NCBI RefSeq assembly: GCF_020405225.1
Contig: NZ_CP084472.1
Location: 1,488,001-1,552,000 of the forward strand
DNA from: Natrinema sp. DC36
GTDB lineage: Archaea > Halobacteriota > Halobacteria > Halobacteriales > Natrialbaceae
DNA: 64,000 nucleotides
Reading direction: 5' to 3'
The position numbers and the translations under genes were made by a program. Under the pieces are notes generated by a model. That model saw only the letters and a program-made list of their open reading frames with translations. It made no database searches and was not told where the DNA came from. Shown piece by piece: positions 3,622 through 30,185 of this stretch; position 1 is the first letter of the stretch, and each line of letters starts with the position of its first letter.

Positions 3622-4794
3622 ATGCGTTTTGCCACCCCCGCACAATGCGAGTGGGAGGGATGGGGGGAATCGACCGCCGTAATCGTCGCGATGGGGCTCG
3701 CGCTCGCGGTCGCCGGAATCGTTCAGACGCTCGAGACGCCGGTCTCGCAGCCGGTCGTCGCGTTCGAACTGTTCGTCTCGCTGCTCGTGCCGACCGGACT
3801 GGCCACCGGCGGCTACTGGCTGGCCAGTCGGAACGTCTCGCCGGACGTCCGCTGGCGAGCCGCGACCAGGGTCTCGATCGGGATCGTCGTCGCGTGCGCG
3901 CTCGGCGTCTGGCTGATCGGCTACGTCACGCTCGAGGGCGGAGCGATCCGGGATCCGCTGTCGCTGGTGACGGTCCTCGCTGCGGTCGGCGGTGCGACCG
4001 GCTTCGCCAGTGCCATCCAAGAACCGCTGCCAGACGAGTCCAGTTCGATGTGTGACTGTGCGGTCGACGGAGACACGGAGTCGGCACCGTCGCCAACCGC
4101 GGCCGCCGCCGATACGAAATCGACCGCCGAAGAATCGACAGCGGCCACTACCGAAACGACGGCACCGACAGACGAGCGGATTTCGGACGCGGTGGAATCT
4201 ACTGACGAGACAGCGACTTCTAGTGCGTCGACAGCCACCGATGCGTCGACAGCCGCCACTGCGTCGGCCGCCACCACTGCACCGTCAGCCAGCACTGCGT
4301 CGACAATAGCGGAGACGCCGTCACGTGCTGGCGTCTCCCCGGACGCCGACACCGCCGCTGGTCCCGGCGATCCGACACATTTTGTCGATTCGAGCGGGGA
4401 CCAAACGTCCGAAGAGTCCGACGCACCGCCACTGCCAGCGCGGGATCCGGGCGTCGATACCGTGGCAGCCGTCCCGTCGACGGCGGAAACGGTCCTCGAC
4501 GTACTCCAGAACGAGCGCGCTCGAGTCGCACTTGCCGTGCTCTATCACGAATGGAACGGCGAGACCCGGTCGGTCGACGACCTCGCTCGCGCGGTCGCTT
4601 CGCACACGGACGATTCCGTCGACGCCGTCGCAGCCGTGCTCCGACACGCTACCCTCCCGGAACTGGCGGCGATCCGAGCGATCGACTGGGACCCCCACAC
4701 GGATCTCGTCTCGGAATCCGACCACGCCGTCTTCGAAGAGGGGGTTCGCGAGGCGTCGATCCTCCTCGAGGCGTTCGAACCGGGAACGAGATAG
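3622..4794 (+). CDS. Membrane protein with long Ser/Thr/Ala linker and C-terminal DUF7344-like HTH
   Basis: 390 residues in three parts. Residues about 18-130 hold four hydrophobic segments. Residues about 135-290 are a low-complexity, Thr/Ser/Ala/Asp-rich linker that includes a Cys pair (MCDCAVD). Residues about 290-390 resemble a DUF7344 domain (AETVLDVLQNERARVALAVL, then DDLARAVASHTDDS and LRHATLPELAAIRAI). This is an inverted design compared with the protein at 1507-2076, where the HTH is N-terminal. It is likely a membrane-tethered regulator that could reach DNA through the flexible linker. The signal is unknown. Expression is probably leaderless from the TATA box just upstream. Confidence 0.75.
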   Translation: MRFATPAQCEWEGWGESTAVIVAMGLALAVAGIVQTLETPVSQPVVAFELFVSLLVPTGLATGGYWLASRNVSPDVRWRAATRVSIGIVVACALGVWLIGYVTLEGGAIRDPLSLVTVLAAVGGATGFASAIQEPLPDESSSMCDCAVDGDTESAPSPTAAAADTKSTAEESTAATTETTAPTDERISDAVESTDETATSSASTATDASTAATASAATTAPSASTASTIAETPSRAGVSPDADTAAGPGDPTHFVDSSGDQTSEESDAPPLPARDPGVDTVAAVPSTAETVLDVLQNERARVALAVLYHEWNGETRSVDDLARAVASHTDDSVDAVAAVLRHATLPELAAIRAIDWDPHTDLVSESDHAVFEEGVREASILLEAFEPGTR

Positions 4795-23681: not shown

Positions 23682-23816
23682 ACGCTCGCGTATACGCGCG
23701 GCGGGTTTCAGTCCGACCGTGACATTTGCCTGTTTCGGGAGCGCTGACTGTCGCTCCAGTGAACAGGTTAGAGCGCTTGACAAAGGTGTTTATTCCATAT
23801 CGTGGTGGGAACGCGT

Positions 23817-24773
23817 ATGCGACGACGAGACCTCCTCGCCGGCACGACCGGCGCGGTCTGTGGACTGGCCGGCTGCACGGGTTCGACGATCGACCGACTC
23901 CAGTCGGACCGTCCCGGTACCGACGGTGACGAGTCCGCTACCGACTCGAGCGCCGACACCGATCGGACCGACAGCGAATCGCAATCGGACGACACGATCG
24001 AGGTCGGGGACCCCGACGAGGTGCCGTTCCTCGATGCGCACCCACCACACGAGTTCGAACTCCGAAACGAGGGCGAGGCGGCTCGGACGATCTCCGTGAC
24101 GGTCAGAGCCGAGGGAACCGACGAGGGCGACGGAGACGACGCTGACGGGAGCGATCGCGACACGCTACTCGAGCGCGATCTCGATCTCGCGGCGGGCGAT
24201 GCGATCACGCTCGTCCTTTTCGAACCGCGGTCGTACGTCATCACCGTCACGACGAGCAGCGACGACGGCACGAGCGAGGCGACCGTCACCGACGGGATCG
24301 ACCGCAGCCCCTTCGACTGCACCCGCTCTCGAACGACTCTGACACTTAGCGATACCGGCACGCGGACGGAGTCGACCTCGACCTCGATATCCTGTCCGAC
24401 GCCGGCGGTTGCAGACGCGTCCCTCGAGGTCGGCGAGCGAGAGTGTGCAGGCGGGACGGACGAGGACGGTGCGACCGTCGAGTTCGCGGACGAAACCGTG
24501 ATCGTCGACGGCGATATCACGACGCCAACACCGTGTCACGGCCTCTCGCTGGCCGAGACGGAGTACGACGAGCGACGAGGTGTCCTCGCGATCACCGTCG
24601 CCGTCGGCGAGCAGGAGAGCGACACCTGTACCGACTGTCTCGGAACCGTCGATTACGAGGCTCGGATCGACCTCGAGGGGCGGTATCCGGAGCGCGTTGA
24701 AGTCCACCACGAGACCGGCGACGAGGGTCAGCGGATCACTGCGGCTGAGTACGATTATTCGACGGGCGGGTAA
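23817..24773 (+). CDS. Exported lipoprotein, hypothetical
   Basis: 318 residues. A twin-Arg signal and lipobox (MRRRDLLAGTTGAVCGLAGC) put the lipidated Cys near residue 20. A Ser/Thr/Asp-rich tether of about 45 residues follows, then a beta-rich domain with strands such as EFELRNEGEAARTISVTV and SYVITVTTSSDDGTSEATV. Several Cys residues (CTRS, CPTP, CAGG, CHGL, CTDCLG) suggest disulfides or metal binding. I recognise no catalytic motif. It is probably a cell-surface protein. Family unknown. Confidence 0.75.
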   Translation: MRRRDLLAGTTGAVCGLAGCTGSTIDRLQSDRPGTDGDESATDSSADTDRTDSESQSDDTIEVGDPDEVPFLDAHPPHEFELRNEGEAARTISVTVRAEGTDEGDGDDADGSDRDTLLERDLDLAAGDAITLVLFEPRSYVITVTTSSDDGTSEATVTDGIDRSPFDCTRSRTTLTLSDTGTRTESTSTSISCPTPAVADASLEVGERECAGGTDEDGATVEFADETVIVDGDITTPTPCHGLSLAETEYDERRGVLAITVAVGEQESDTCTDCLGTVDYEARIDLEGRYPERVEVHHETGDEGQRITAAEYDYSTGG

Positions 24774-24790: not shown

Positions 24791-25174
24791 TCAGTGTTCG
24801 ACGAGTTCGATCAGGATACCACCGGTGTCCTTGGGATGCAAGAACGCAACCGAGTGACCCCACGCGCCCGGCCGCGGCTCCTCGTCGATTAGCGTCACGT
24901 CGTGGTCGCGAATCGTCTCGAGGGCCCCCTCGATGTCGTCGGTCGCGAGCGCGAGATGGTGAATTCCCGCTCCGTTGTCCTCGAGATACCGCGAAATCGT
25001 TCCGTCCTCGATGGGTTCGAGCAGCTCGAAGTAGCCGTCACCGCAGTCGAGGAAGACGACGCGCATTCCGTCGAACACCTCCTCGTGGACCGCCTCGAGA
25101 CCGAAGAGGTCGTCGTACAGCGCTGCGAGAGCCTGTGCGTCGTCGGTCGCGATCCCGGCGTGGTCGAAGTGCAT
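24791..25174 (-). CDS. mce: Methylmalonyl-CoA epimerase (VOC fold)
   Basis: 127 residues, the usual length. The two VOC repeats carry the metal ligands: FDHAGIATDDAQALAALYDD (His near residue 4), GAGIHHLALATDDIEGAL (His near residue 75) and a terminal Glu in GGILIELVEH. It interconverts the (S) and (R) forms of methylmalonyl-CoA, working with methylmalonyl-CoA mutase, whose large subunit is encoded 3 kb away on the same strand. The genes are adjacent in many haloarchaea as I recall; here they are separated by an aldo/keto reductase stub and a sugar dehydrogenase. Confidence 0.9.
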   Translation of the reverse strand: MHFDHAGIATDDAQALAALYDDLFGLEAVHEEVFDGMRVVFLDCGDGYFELLEPIEDGTISRYLEDNGAGIHHLALATDDIEGALETIRDHDVTLIDEEPRPGAWGHSVAFLHPKDTGGILIELVEH

Positions 25175-25325
25175 CGGATTGTACTGCACGATGGGGCCGT
25201 GTTACTGTTATGATTTTTCGTGGTGTTCGAGTCGCACTCGAGGAGCGGGCCCACCGCCTCGCGACGGCCGACACTCCAGATGCAACTGGTCGGCCAGCCG
25301 ATCCGAAAGCCCACCGTCGAGTTCG

Positions 25326-25516: not shown

Positions 25517-25562
25517 AAAAAAAGTCGATGGCCGCGAGTCGAGCGTCTCGTCGCTCGAGACG
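25517..25562 (-). terminator. Hairpin plus oligo-T terminator of the sugar dehydrogenase gene
   Basis: Just past the sugar dehydrogenase stop, the minus strand has CGTCTCG-AGCGA-CGAGACG (a perfect 7-bp stem) and, about 20 bases later, TTTTTTT. In archaea the oligo-T tract is the more important element. It would insulate the gene from the downstream stub and the epimerase gene. Confidence 0.5.
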
Positions 25563-25572
25563 TTACGCGTCG

Positions 25573-27873
25573 TCAGTTCTCGTCAGATGTCACGTTCTCA
25601 GCGGTTTCGTTGTCGGCCGTCGCGTTCGCAGTGGTTTCGTTGCCAGCCGTTTCGTTTCCTGCCGTCTCGTTGCCAGCCGATTCCGCCATACCAGCGCCCG
25701 TTTCGGGCGGAGTCAGGGAATCTCCCTCGCCCGGTGGAACGATCTGCATGACCGCGCCCGTGTCTCCTTCGGGGACGCCAACCTGGTTCGCGAGGACGTA
25801 CACGTTGCCGTTGGAGTCCTGGCCGAACTGCCGGACGAAGTAGGGGAACGAGCCGTCTTCGGTGCCTGCGACCTGAAGCTCTTCCATCTCCCAGAGTTCG
25901 TCCCGCGGGACGACTTGCTCCTGACCGGCACCGCCGGCCTCTGCCGCGCCGTCGGCGGCGGTCTCGTTGCCGGCCGTCGCGTTGCCGGCAGTCTCGTTCT
26001 CGAAGCCTTCGGACTCGAGGTCGGCCGCGCCGCCTGCCTCGCTCTCGTTCGTCGCGTTGGTCTCGTTCGTCGCGTTGGTCTCGTTCGTCGCGTTGGTCTC
26101 GTTCGTCGCGTTGGTCTCGTTCGTCGCGTTCTCGAATCCCTCGTCTTCGATACCGCCCTCGCCGGCAGTCACGTTCTCGAGGCTGGCGTTTTCCGACTGG
26201 TTCCCGCCGCCGTTACCGGCCATCTGTCCGGCTCCGCCGCTGGGTTCCGTTGCGGCGAGGAGCCGCCCCTGGGGAGACTGCCGCGCCGCGTCCGCCGTCC
26301 AGTCGCCGAAGATGTACTTGCCGTTCAGTTCCTGTACGGCGTCGGCCTCGTAGACGTGACCGCCGACGACCGCGATGCCGACGACCTCACCCTGATAGAC
26401 GTGGGGGTACTCGACGATCGGGTCCTGGAACTCCTGGCCGTCGTACGGCGGCTCGTCGGGAGCCGAGTTCGGGCACTCCTCGGGCGGCTCGCCCGGCGTC
26501 TCCGGGCTGAAGCAGTGGGTGCCCTCCTTGACGTTCCAGCCGTAGTTGCCGCCCGACTCGACGATGTTGACCTCCTCGTAGAGGTCCTGTCCGAGGTCTG
26601 CGACGAACAGTCGGCCGTCGCTGTCGAACGAGATGCCGTACGGGTTCCGGAGGCCCCACGCGTAGTGTTCGGGCAGCGCCTCGTCGGAGTCGGCGAGCGG
26701 GTTGTCGTCCGGAATGCCGTAGGGCCGGTCTTCGCCCTCGCTGTCGACGTCGACGCGGAGGATGCTGCCGAGCAGGTTCTCGCCGACGTCCTGTCCGTTG
26801 CCGCCTTCGTTGTCGCTATACCAGTCCTGGACGTGTCCCAGCATGGAGTCGTTGGCACCGCCGCCGTCGCCCATCGGGACGTAGAGGTAGCCGTCGGGTC
26901 CGAACGCCATCGGTCCCGAGTTGTGGTTGTACTGGGGCTTCTGGAACTCCATAATGACCTGCTCGGACTCGGGATCGGCGGCGCTCATATCCTCGTTGGC
27001 CTGGAACTCGGAGACGACCTCGACGTGACTCCAGCCGTCGGGCGTCTCGTCGTTCGGGGGCCTACTGTAGTGGACGAATAAGCGGCCGTTTTCGGAATAG
27101 TCAGGATGGGGCTGGACGCCGAGCAATCCGCGCTCGTCGTAGTCCTGGCCCTGACTCGCGTAGTCGCCCTCGAAGGTCCCGAGTTCGACCATCCGATCAC
27201 TGACGTCGAGGAACGGCTCGTCCTGCAACCCGTCGCCGGTGACGACCCACAGCTCGCCGGTCTGGTCGGTAACGAAGTACCGGCCCGCCTCGCCGGCGAC
27301 CGCCATGTCCGTCGGCGCGGTCATGCCCTCCGCGATCGTCTGGACGCCGATCTCCGTCCCCTCGCGGAAGAAGCCCTGCATCTGGCCGGCGGCCTCCTGT
27401 TGACCCCCGCCACCGCCGCCGACCTCGATGTCGCCGTTCATCGACGCGCGGTGGGGCTGACAGAAGTACGTTGCCATCTCGCTCGTCGCCTCGAACTCGA
27501 GGGTCTGCGTCTCGCCCTCGGAACTCAGGATTTCGGTCGACTCGAGTTCCTCGCCCTCCTCGCTCTCGATGACGAAGTTGTGCGGCGCGCCGTCGAGGTT
27601 CTCCCACGTCACCTCGTACGTCGTTCCCTCCTGCAGTTCCAGCGTCGGGTTCGTCTCACCCGAAATCGGTTCGGGCGAAACGCCTTGCCAGCCGCTCGTT
27701 TCGCCGCCGAGTTCGATCGTTTGGGTATCGAACTGGGCGGCACCGATCCCACTCAGACCGACGACACCGCCCGCGGCCGCGGCCGCCTGCAGCACGCGAC
27801 GACGGGACGCTGATGGATAGTTGTCGGACGACTCCGATACCGGGGTCGATCGCTCGTTGGGTTGGTCGCTCAT
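25573..27873 (-). CDS. Exported cupredoxin / PQQ-type sugar dehydrogenase fusion with sequon-rich linker and tail
   Basis: 766 residues. A Tat signal (SASRRRVLQAAAAAGG) is followed by a cupredoxin domain (about residues 50-150) with candidate copper ligands H98, C138, H141 and M145 (FCQPHRASM). Next comes a six-bladed glucose/sorbosone dehydrogenase propeller (about 165-540: GLLGVQPHPDYSENGRLFVH, HNSGPMAFGPDGYLYVPMGD, WGLRNPYGISFD). An inserted region (about 550-640) and the C-terminal tail (about 725-766) contain 22 N-X-S/T sequons, ten of them in a NATNET repeat. It probably oxidises an extracellular sugar and passes electrons to copper. Closest known relatives are PQQ-dependent soluble aldose dehydrogenases; cofactor use is inferred. 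Confidence 0.85.
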   Translation of the reverse strand: MSDQPNERSTPVSESSDNYPSASRRRVLQAAAAAGGVVGLSGIGAAQFDTQTIELGGETSGWQGVSPEPISGETNPTLELQEGTTYEVTWENLDGAPHNFVIESEEGEELESTEILSSEGETQTLEFEATSEMATYFCQPHRASMNGDIEVGGGGGGQQEAAGQMQGFFREGTEIGVQTIAEGMTAPTDMAVAGEAGRYFVTDQTGELWVVTGDGLQDEPFLDVSDRMVELGTFEGDYASQGQDYDERGLLGVQPHPDYSENGRLFVHYSRPPNDETPDGWSHVEVVSEFQANEDMSAADPESEQVIMEFQKPQYNHNSGPMAFGPDGYLYVPMGDGGGANDSMLGHVQDWYSDNEGGNGQDVGENLLGSILRVDVDSEGEDRPYGIPDDNPLADSDEALPEHYAWGLRNPYGISFDSDGRLFVADLGQDLYEEVNIVESGGNYGWNVKEGTHCFSPETPGEPPEECPNSAPDEPPYDGQEFQDPIVEYPHVYQGEVVGIAVVGGHVYEADAVQELNGKYIFGDWTADAARQSPQGRLLAATEPSGGAGQMAGNGGGNQSENASLENVTAGEGGIEDEGFENATNETNATNETNATNETNATNETNATNESEAGGAADLESEGFENETAGNATAGNETAADGAAEAGGAGQEQVVPRDELWEMEELQVAGTEDGSFPYFVRQFGQDSNGNVYVLANQVGVPEGDTGAVMQIVPPGEGDSLTPPETGAGMAESAGNETAGNETAGNETTANATADNETAENVTSDEN
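26044..26133 (-). repeat. 18-bp tandem repeat within the sugar dehydrogenase gene
   Basis: The 18-base unit CTCGTTCGTCGCGTTGGT (plus-strand sense) occurs in register from 26044, 26062, 26080 and 26098, with a final partial copy at 26116. On the coding strand each unit encodes a six-residue NATNET period. The copies are identical at DNA level, which indicates recent expansion or homogenisation and predicts copy-number variation between strains. Confidence 0.85.
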
Positions 27874-28048: not shown

Positions 28049-29731
28049 TCACATCGCGCCGCCAGGCTGGTACTCTCCGAACTCGTCGCGCATGACGTTG
28101 CAGATCTCGCCGACCGTCGCGTACGCCTTGACCGCGTCGATGATGTAAGGCATCAGATTCTGGTCGCTCCGCGCCGCGTCGCGCAGCGCCTCGAGGGTCG
28201 CGTCGACCGCTTCGTCGTCGCGCTCCGCGCGGACGTTCGAGAGACTATCGATCTGGCGCTGTTGGTCCTCGGCCGTGACCTCTTCGACGTCCATCTGGGG
28301 ATCTTCGTCGACCTCGAACTCGTTGACGCCGACGATGATCCGCTCTTTGTCTTCGATCTCCTTCTGGCGGTCGAAGGCCGTATCCTGAATCTGGCGCTGA
28401 ACCCACTGCTGTTCGACGGCATCGCGCATGCCACCACGGTCGTCGACCTCCTCTAAGATCTCGTAGGCCTCTTCTTCGACCTCGTCGGTCAGGGATTCGA
28501 CGTAGTAACTGCCAGCGAGCGGGTCGATGGTGTCGGCCGCGCCGGACTCGTGGCCGAGGATCTGTTGGGTGCGCAGTGCCGTTCGGACGGACTCCTCGGT
28601 CGGCAGCGCGAGGGCCTCGTCCTTGCCGTTGGTGTGGAGACTCTGGGTGCCGCCGAGGACGGCCGCGAGCGCCTGATAGGCGACGCGGACGACGTTGTTC
28701 TCGATCTGCTGAGCGGTCAGCATCGAGCCGGCCGTCTGAGTGTGGAACTTGAGCTGTTTGGACTTCGGATCGTCCGCGTCGAAGCGCTCGTCGATGATGT
28801 CGTGCCACATCCGGCGGGCCGCGCGGAACTTGGCGACCTCCTCGAAGATGTTGTTGTGGCCGTTGAAGAAGAAGGAGAGCTGCGGTGCAAAGTCGTCGAC
28901 GTCGAGGCCGGCCTCGATCGCCGTCTCGACGTACTCGATGCCGTCTCCCAGCGTGAAGGCGAGTTCCTGGGCGGCCGTCGAGCCGGCCTCGCGGATGTGG
29001 TAGCCCGAGATCGAGATCGTGTTGAACTTGGGCGTCTCCTCGGCACAGAAGTCGAAGATGTCCGTGATGATCCGCATCGACGGCTCGGGCGGGTAGATGT
29101 ACGTGTTGCGCGCGATGTACTCCTTCAGAATATCGTTCTGGATTGTACCCCGAAGTTCCTCGCGGTCGACGCCCTGCTGGTCACCCACCGCGATGTACAT
29201 CGCCAGCAGCACCGATGCCGGCGCGTTGATCGTCATCGAGGTCGAGACCTCGTCGAGCGGGATGCCGTCGAAGACGGTCTCCATGTCGTCGAGCGAGTCG
29301 ATCGCGACTCCGGCCTTGCCGACCTCGCCGGCGGCCATCGCCGCGTCCGAATCGTACCCCATCTGCGTCGGCAGGTCGAAGGCCATCGACAGTCCGGTCT
29401 GGCCCTCGTCGAGCAGATAGTGATACCGCTCGTTGGTGTCCTCGGGCGTCGAGAACCCCGCGTACTGGCGCATCGTCCACAGCCGACCGCGGTAGCCGGT
29501 CGAGTAGATACCGCGCGTGTACGGCGGCTCGCCGGGATTCCCCAGATCCGCCTCGTACTCGAGGTCGTCGACGTCCGCCGGCGTGTAGAGTCGATCGACC
29601 TCCTGACCGCCCGTATCAGTGGTAAACGTTTCCCTGCGCTCGCCGAACCGCTCGAGGACGGGTTCGACTTCCGCCTCGTGCCACTCCGCTTTGCTGGCAC
29701 GGATCTCCTCGAGTTCGTCGGGATCGAACAT
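28049..29731 (-). CDS. mcmA: Methylmalonyl-CoA mutase large (catalytic) subunit
   Basis: 560 residues, matching the separate catalytic subunit of archaeal two-part mutases; the B12-binding domain (DxHxxG) is absent and must be encoded elsewhere. Features: [74 protein letters not shown] and [19 protein letters not shown]. It isomerises (R)-methylmalonyl-CoA to succinyl-CoA in propionyl-CoA use. The ATG at 29731 starts [17 protein letters not shown], the family-like N terminus. The related epimerase gene lies 2.9 kb downstream on the same strand. Confidence 0.95.
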
Positions 29732-29819
29732 TATGGTTATCGTGGACCGGACGGGGCTTGAACTTTGATGAACGCGCCGCGTTTGCGCGTCCGTCCAGCA
29801 GACCCGCGTTCCGACCGTT

Positions 29820-30185
29820 TCAAACGCTATCGGTCGGATCGTGTTGCGCCGCCATCCGCGATGCTTCGTCGGCGTATCGCTCTCGAGTCGTCGAATCGTC
29901 GACGCTCCCGAGCGCATCGGACGAGACGAGTAACCCGGCTTTCGTCTCTCGAGCGGGCCCGGTAAAGCTCGTCAGTGCGCGCTCGCGGCGGTGGTACCGC
30001 CGGCCGTCCTCGGTCGCGTACACGAGGATGATGAGATTGAGTTCGTCGTCGCCGTACGTTCGCTCGACGAGCCAGACGCGGACCTCGTCGCTTTCGCCGT
30101 CGTCGCTGTCGTCACTGCCATCGCTGCCATTGCTGTCGTCGGAATCGATCCGTGCAGCAGCCGAATCTGACTGGTTCGAATTCAT
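29820..30185 (-). CDS. Hypothetical acidic protein
   Basis: 121 residues. The first 35 are Ser/Asp-rich and probably disordered. A core of about 65 residues follows with strands [20 protein letters not shown] and [19 protein letters not shown] and the helix-like [19 protein letters not shown]. It is a small haloarchaeal protein of unknown function; no catalytic or metal motif seen. It lies 88 bases upstream of the mutase gene on the same strand and diverges from the membrane protein at 30242. Confidence 0.65.

Follow-up and report, generated by a model that had tools for sequence, protein, structure and literature searches.

A loop within the propeller and the C-terminal tail of a probably exported cupredoxin-GSDH protein of Natrinema sp. 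DC36 together carry 22 N-glycosylation sequons (N-X-S/T). It is probable that these two segments, the loop belonging to blade 5, grew through the copying of DNA repeats and were selected to carry many acceptor sites for AglB. The sequon array is a real and well-retained feature; N-glycoproteins of the AglB type and this kind of enzyme were already known. The gene lies on the reverse strand of the window (the whole stretch of 64,000 nucleotides that was analysed), arranged as follows:

25573..27873 (-): whole gene, encoding the putatively Tat-exported cupredoxin-GSDH protein of 766 aa (ORF, Pfam)
27733..27873 (-): aa 1–47, N-terminal region with twin-arginine SRRRVLQ and a hydrophobic stretch to AAQ, no lipobox Cys (sequence)
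27421..27726 (-): aa 50–151, cupredoxin domain, PF00127 (profile match)
27373..27420 (-): aa 152–167, Gly/Gln-rich linker between cupredoxin domain and propeller, no sequons (sequence)
26221..27372 (-): aa 168–551, first part of the six-bladed propeller, GSDH (Pfam, AF2, structure comparison)
25909..26220 (-): aa 552–655, predicted-disordered loop inserted between propeller strands, 16 sequons (AF2 pLDDT <50)
26041..26130 (-): unbroken run of ten sequons, (NATNET)4 NATNES, encoded by a perfect 18-bp tandem repeat
25729..25908 (-): aa 656–715, rest of the propeller, comprising the strand that closes blade 5 and the strands of blade 6, no sequons
25576..25728 (-): aa 716–766, C-terminal tail, six sequons
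28049..29917 (-): upstream neighbour, methylmalonyl-CoA mutase (PF01642), marking the conserved gene site
24791..25189 (-): downstream neighbour, glyoxalase-fold protein, probably methylmalonyl-CoA epimerase, marking the conserved gene site

The preliminary description had counted 16 sequons in the loop, with an unbroken run of ten (NATNETNATNETNATNETNATNETNATNES), and six in the tail, and the same counts were recovered from the sequence. It had also stated that the rest of the protein has no such density, which agrees with a propeller core that was nearly free of sequons; the single core site, N341-D-S, brings the protein total to 23. Both counts were far above chance: composition shuffles of the loop contained 2.8 on average, with 0 of 2000 reaching 16, while shuffles of the tail contained 1.6 on average, with 0 of 2000 reaching six. 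The genomic background was 0.30 sequons per 100 aa, estimated from 723 gene-like ORFs delimited by a crude ORF caller in 864 kb, or about 17% of the genome. When these 723 ORFs were ranked by the number of sequons in any 120 aa, the cupredoxin-GSDH protein came first with 16, followed by ORFs with 13, 10 and 9.

An artefact or a wrong frame was considered as the source of the sequon ORF, and was ruled out by the reading frame, the Pfam domains and the presence of syntenic orthologues in ten named genomes. The mutase and the probable epimerase flanked the gene in the window and at 10 of 10 named loci with an orthologue (from Natrinema, Haloterrigena salina, Halopiger and Natrialba), and therefore the orthologues occupy one locus. 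Three other features of the window were recorded. An open antisense frame of 517 aa (25528–27081, +) overlaps the gene and probably reflects the coding bias that comes with high G+C. A Tat-type lipoprotein with a Ser/Thr/Asp-rich spacer and no Pfam match is encoded near the gene (23802–24773, +). Another 18-bp tandem repeat, with 4.6 copies and 78% match, occurs at 4224–4305 within an ORF at 3622–4794 (+).

The earlier identification of a Tat-type N-terminus, a cupredoxin domain and a sugar dehydrogenase fold was upheld. The Tat-type N-terminus (SRRRVLQ...AAQ) was read by eye, PF00127 matched aa 86–151 of the 766-aa protein, and PF07995 (GSDH) matched aa 186–523 with 116 bits against a cut-off of 25; TIGR03606 scored under its subfamily cut-off. 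Across 15 orthologues, S23, RRR 24–26 and L28 of the N-terminus were invariant, as was the type-1 copper ligand pattern (H98, C138, H141, M145). The AF2 model contained a six-bladed propeller that matched 7cgz, 2ism and 3a9g (Z 39 over model residues 5–549). His317 and Arg409-Asn410 aligned with His144 and Arg228-Asn229 of Acinetobacter sGDH (1c9u), the catalytic His and the Arg-Asn of its PQQ site. Because the PQQ-site residues align and the copper ligands are invariant, the protein is probably an exported sugar or aldose dehydrogenase that passes electrons to its own copper domain. A profile search of the genome for PqqE found nothing above cut-off.

The six-bladed propeller is held in common with the PQQ-dependent soluble aldose sugar dehydrogenases (Pyrobaculum 3a9g, E. 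coli Asd 2g8s, Thermus 2ism and Acinetobacter sGDH 1c9u), the likeness being Z 39.0 and 2.6 A over 334 residues for 3a9g, and Z 32.2 for 1c9u. Unlike these enzymes, the Natrinema protein has an N-terminal cupredoxin fusion, putative Tat export, a blade-loop insertion of ~105 residues that is rich in sequons, and a sequon-rich tail. The best match by both Foldseek and sequence was the propeller of HHIP (Z 37), which is a binding protein and not an enzyme. Relatives on viral contigs were also observed; these are GSDH proteins, 33–44% identical.

The position of the loop differed from that first proposed. It had been described as a linker after the propeller, but the segment sits inside the propeller, one domain boundary away, as indicated by the HHIP alignment, by homologues with short loops and by the AF2 model. 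Although the Pfam GSDH match ends at residue 523, the last blade resumes past the loop at aa 656–715, a stretch matched in alignments by HHIP's last blade and, in homologues whose loop is only 13–15 aa, by the C-terminal end. HHIP itself has a short connection (chain 304 to 315) where the Natrinema protein has its long loop (query 528 to 659). The AF2 model, built with 85 diverse homologues, had a pLDDT of 82 overall and mostly >90 in the propeller; aa 552–655 were the only long stretch with pLDDT <50. Strands were modelled at 536–542 before the loop and at 662–668, 679–685, 691–696 and 706–712 after it. The loop is therefore an insertion within the propeller that expanded from an ancestral length of about 13 aa, and the picture of a spacer was wrong in detail, since the sequons lie in that loop and in the tail rather than between domains. 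The topology of the model suggests that the loop connects strands C and D of blade 5, that strand C of blade 6 leads into the tail and that an N-terminal strand closes blade 6. Judging from strand order, the loop, the tail and the cupredoxin linker would all exit from the same propeller face, opposite the face of the substrate mouth, which in sGDH is that of the BC/DA loops.

Retention of the array was evaluated in a set of 15 Natrinema orthologues, comprising the window's own and 14 others with 71–78% overall identity to it. Loops in this set were 62–113 aa long and tails 38–60 aa; 221 of the 233 Asn that they contained (95%) were in sequons, and all 30 loop and tail segments exceeded shuffles of their own composition. 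The position two residues after Asn was T in 83% of cases and S in 12%, giving an entropy of 0.90 bits, as against 1.7–3.0 at every other offset. The pattern extended to a wider orthologue clade (28 rows), where 333 of 364 loop and tail Asn were in sequons, compared with 12 of 491 in the propeller core; some loops of this clade were short and sequon-poor (L123, 40 aa; L122, 49 aa).

The NATNET run corresponds to a perfect DNA repeat, and part of the array is therefore the product of recent copying. TRF placed the 18-bp repeat beneath the ten contiguous sequons at 26043–26130, with 4.9 copies and 100% match. Period repeats were present in other orthologues also, where the units had diverged at synonymous sites in most cases, and the codons of sequon Thr varied synonymously (ACC 89, ACG 73, ACT 21, ACA 10). 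From these sequences, it is a fair reading that repeat copying supplies the raw material for the array. The array might then be a neutral low-complexity tract, in which slippage and unequal crossing-over expand codon repeats in a tolerant loop and the sequons, copied along with the founder unit, go unused. The perfect repeat in the window gene and the period repeats elsewhere would both be expected of such a tract, as would the absence of better conservation at individual Asn, which among close pairs changed non-synonymously in 15.6% of cases against 17.4% in the flanks (p = 0.64). However, repeat units varied by species (NATNET, MNETGG/MNESAD, GNETADMNET, ANETDGNVT), and these differing founder units all keep N-X-T. 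The proportion of orthologue Asn in sequons also far exceeded that in the Asp/Asn-rich loops of paralogues, where it was 4 of 45 when pooled (L154 0/12, L069 1/12, L058 2/10, L061 1/6, L151 0/5). Since, moreover, the units have mostly diverged at synonymous sites, and the motif is common to the tail, the loop and a second loop of a paralogue, a neutral tract is considered unlikely. The +2 position of sequons changed non-synonymously in 9.7% of cases against 17.4% in the flanking loop (p = 0.017, from close pairs that are not fully independent). These comparisons can fairly be taken to suggest that the density of sequons and the integrity of the motif are preserved, with turnover at individual sites.

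Among 102 haloarchaeal homologues, about half had a loop of 12–30 aa, mostly with little or no tail, and expanded loops differed in their make-up. Besides the sequon-rich kind, there were acidic loops (L151, L064, L134–L136), Thr-rich loops (L124, L125) and Asp/Asn-rich loops with hardly any sequons (such as L154 and L058). This variety in the same loop would suit a general hydrophilic, acidic and disordered cushion for high salt, where composition matters rather than glycosylation and Asn-Glu-Thr is one recipe of several; Glu and Asp are abundant in the N-X-T loops as well (E 17% and D 12% of their composition). Such a cushion is quite improbable, since it leaves unexplained why Asn stands at -2 from Thr or Ser in 95% of orthologue cases, and since Asp/Asn-rich cushions exist without that pattern. 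As those loops indicate, Asn in Asp/Asn-rich linkers need not fall in sequons.

The preliminary description had regarded equally long linkers without sequons as evidence against its reading. These were found in paralogues (L154, 78 aa; L151, 138 aa; L064, 99 aa), and so sequons are not required of the linker in every case, but such sequon-free linkers were not found in the syntenic orthologues of Natrinema, Natrialba and Halopiger. On a tree of the propeller that excluded the loop, sequon-rich loops implied about seven state changes, six of them forced by well-supported branches. At least two regions of the tree contained them, namely the orthologue clade (with L126, from another family, among its members) and the Natrinema paralogue family P2, in which a second loop and the tail bear sequons in addition to this loop. 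One such paralogue, a cupredoxin-GSDH protein with sequon-rich loops and tail, is located ~1.5 kb past the right end of the window (L002:1504-3759, G000:C1:1553542); it has 752 aa and is 59% identical in its best stretch.

In line with the proposed AglB route, the same genome contains AglB (TIGR04154, 870.7 bits against a cut-off of 450). AglB was identified in 20 of 20 genomes tested, including those with sequon-free loops; its presence alone therefore predicts nothing, and the possibility that sequon presence tracks AglB presence was ruled out. The term N-glycosylation region, as first applied, gained comparative support from the 95% of Asn in sequons, the differing repeat units, the sequon-rich exported proteins and AglB itself. 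On balance, comparison among relatives speaks for an acceptor region for N-glycosylation that has been under selection.

In Haloferax volcanii, 45 AglB-dependent N-glycoproteins with 114 sites have been mapped by mass spectrometry, among them SecD and Tat substrates (PMC8241124). They are exported haloarchaeal proteins with N-X-S/T sites recognised by AglB, as the Natrinema protein would be, and HVO_2160, with 19 confirmed N-glycosylation sites (PMC8241124), demonstrates that many sites are usable on one protein. They differ in that the Haloferax sites come from mass spectrometry, while the 22 Natrinema sequons are candidate sites read from the sequence and are packed in two disordered segments. 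Oligosaccharyltransferases bind the sequon in extended form (PMC7226087), which suits disordered segments. The loop and tail are probably coated with many sugar chains, though simultaneous use of all sequons spaced three residues apart is unlikely. That the Thr of the array is instead O-glycosylated, the sequons being a by-product, is hardly credible: Thr-rich versions of the loop (L124, L125) and O-glycopeptide candidates in Haloferax (PMC8241124) lend it something, but Thr in the Natrinema loops is tied to Asn at -2, a constraint that O-glycosylation would not impose. In the L124 and L125 orthologues (genus g21, another family), the Thr-dominated loop might itself be O-glycosylated.

The literature searched contained nothing relevant to sequon-rich linkers or repeats in haloarchaea. 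Halomucin of Haloquadratum walsbyi is a large secreted haloarchaeal protein with a proposed role as a mucin-like coat; it is a giant structural protein, whereas the Natrinema array decorates a folded oxidoreductase.

The array had been called unusual, and it was indeed the densest case in the 17% genome sample, but other exported proteins of Natrinema also had sequon-rich segments. Export-type N-termini (Tat or Sec, by eye) were present in all four of the ORFs with the highest sequon density in the sample. The ORFs ranking next were two Tat lipoproteins (L077, L090) and a Sec-type protein at L185:3596-4804, reaching into L105 (G000:C1 about 2559596-2560804). The last is an exported-looking protein of 402 aa with degenerate DNTTDAVDDT repeats and 13 sequons in 120 aa, for which no Pfam match was obtained. 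Across 29 Natrinema genomes, three contiguous N-X-T triplets occurred at 74 (overlapping) places, some of them in non-coding frames, compared with 3 for the reversed control. Proteins with such runs, besides the cupredoxin-GSDH protein, are of two kinds noted here. Several short Natrinema Tat lipoproteins (L216, L217, L218, L219, L228) consist of little beyond a lipobox followed by a NETNETNETNET run, and SecD-like proteins, named by eye (L213, L215, L230), contain a short contiguous run such as NQTNQTNQTNET. A NATNVTNTT frame at L227 and similar frames in L214, L221, L222 and L225 appeared to be non-coding and were left out of the evidence. It is conceivable, and put forward tentatively, that sequon arrays recur among haloarchaeal exported proteins as a fast-evolving module, comparable to mucin domains but N-linked. 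Repeat expansion would make disordered loops, tails and lipoprotein spacers, and selection would keep nearly every Asn as an AglB acceptor, letting Tat-folded proteins be densely glycosylated.

For the cupredoxin-GSDH protein, the reading preferred here, selection for AglB acceptor sites, would proceed as follows. Copying of short DNA repeats would expand the C-D loop of blade 5 and the C-terminal tail into disordered segments, which selection would cause to carry many acceptor sites. The enzyme would fold and then cross the membrane via Tat, after which AglB, at the outer membrane face, would glycosylate only the flexible parts, loop and tail, at a subset of the 22 sequons. A hydrophilic glycan brush would then cover the propeller face opposite the substrate mouth, and might keep the secreted enzyme in solution, shield it from proteases or retain it in the S-layer space. 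It is possible, as had been suggested, that the array protects the enzyme in high salt; the further suggestion of a tether found no support, because the sequence showed no anchor motif.

Glycosylation of the array, if it takes place, would make the protein a naturally occurring substrate that offers up to 22 sites, divided between two flexible segments. The genomes concerned have one clear AglB, and a series of orthologues along with relatives having a sequon-free loop would be ready for comparison. It would then be possible to ask how an archaeal oligosaccharyltransferase handles Tat-folded proteins, how small the spacing between occupied sites can be, and how a secreted enzyme fares in brine under a dense N-glycan coat.
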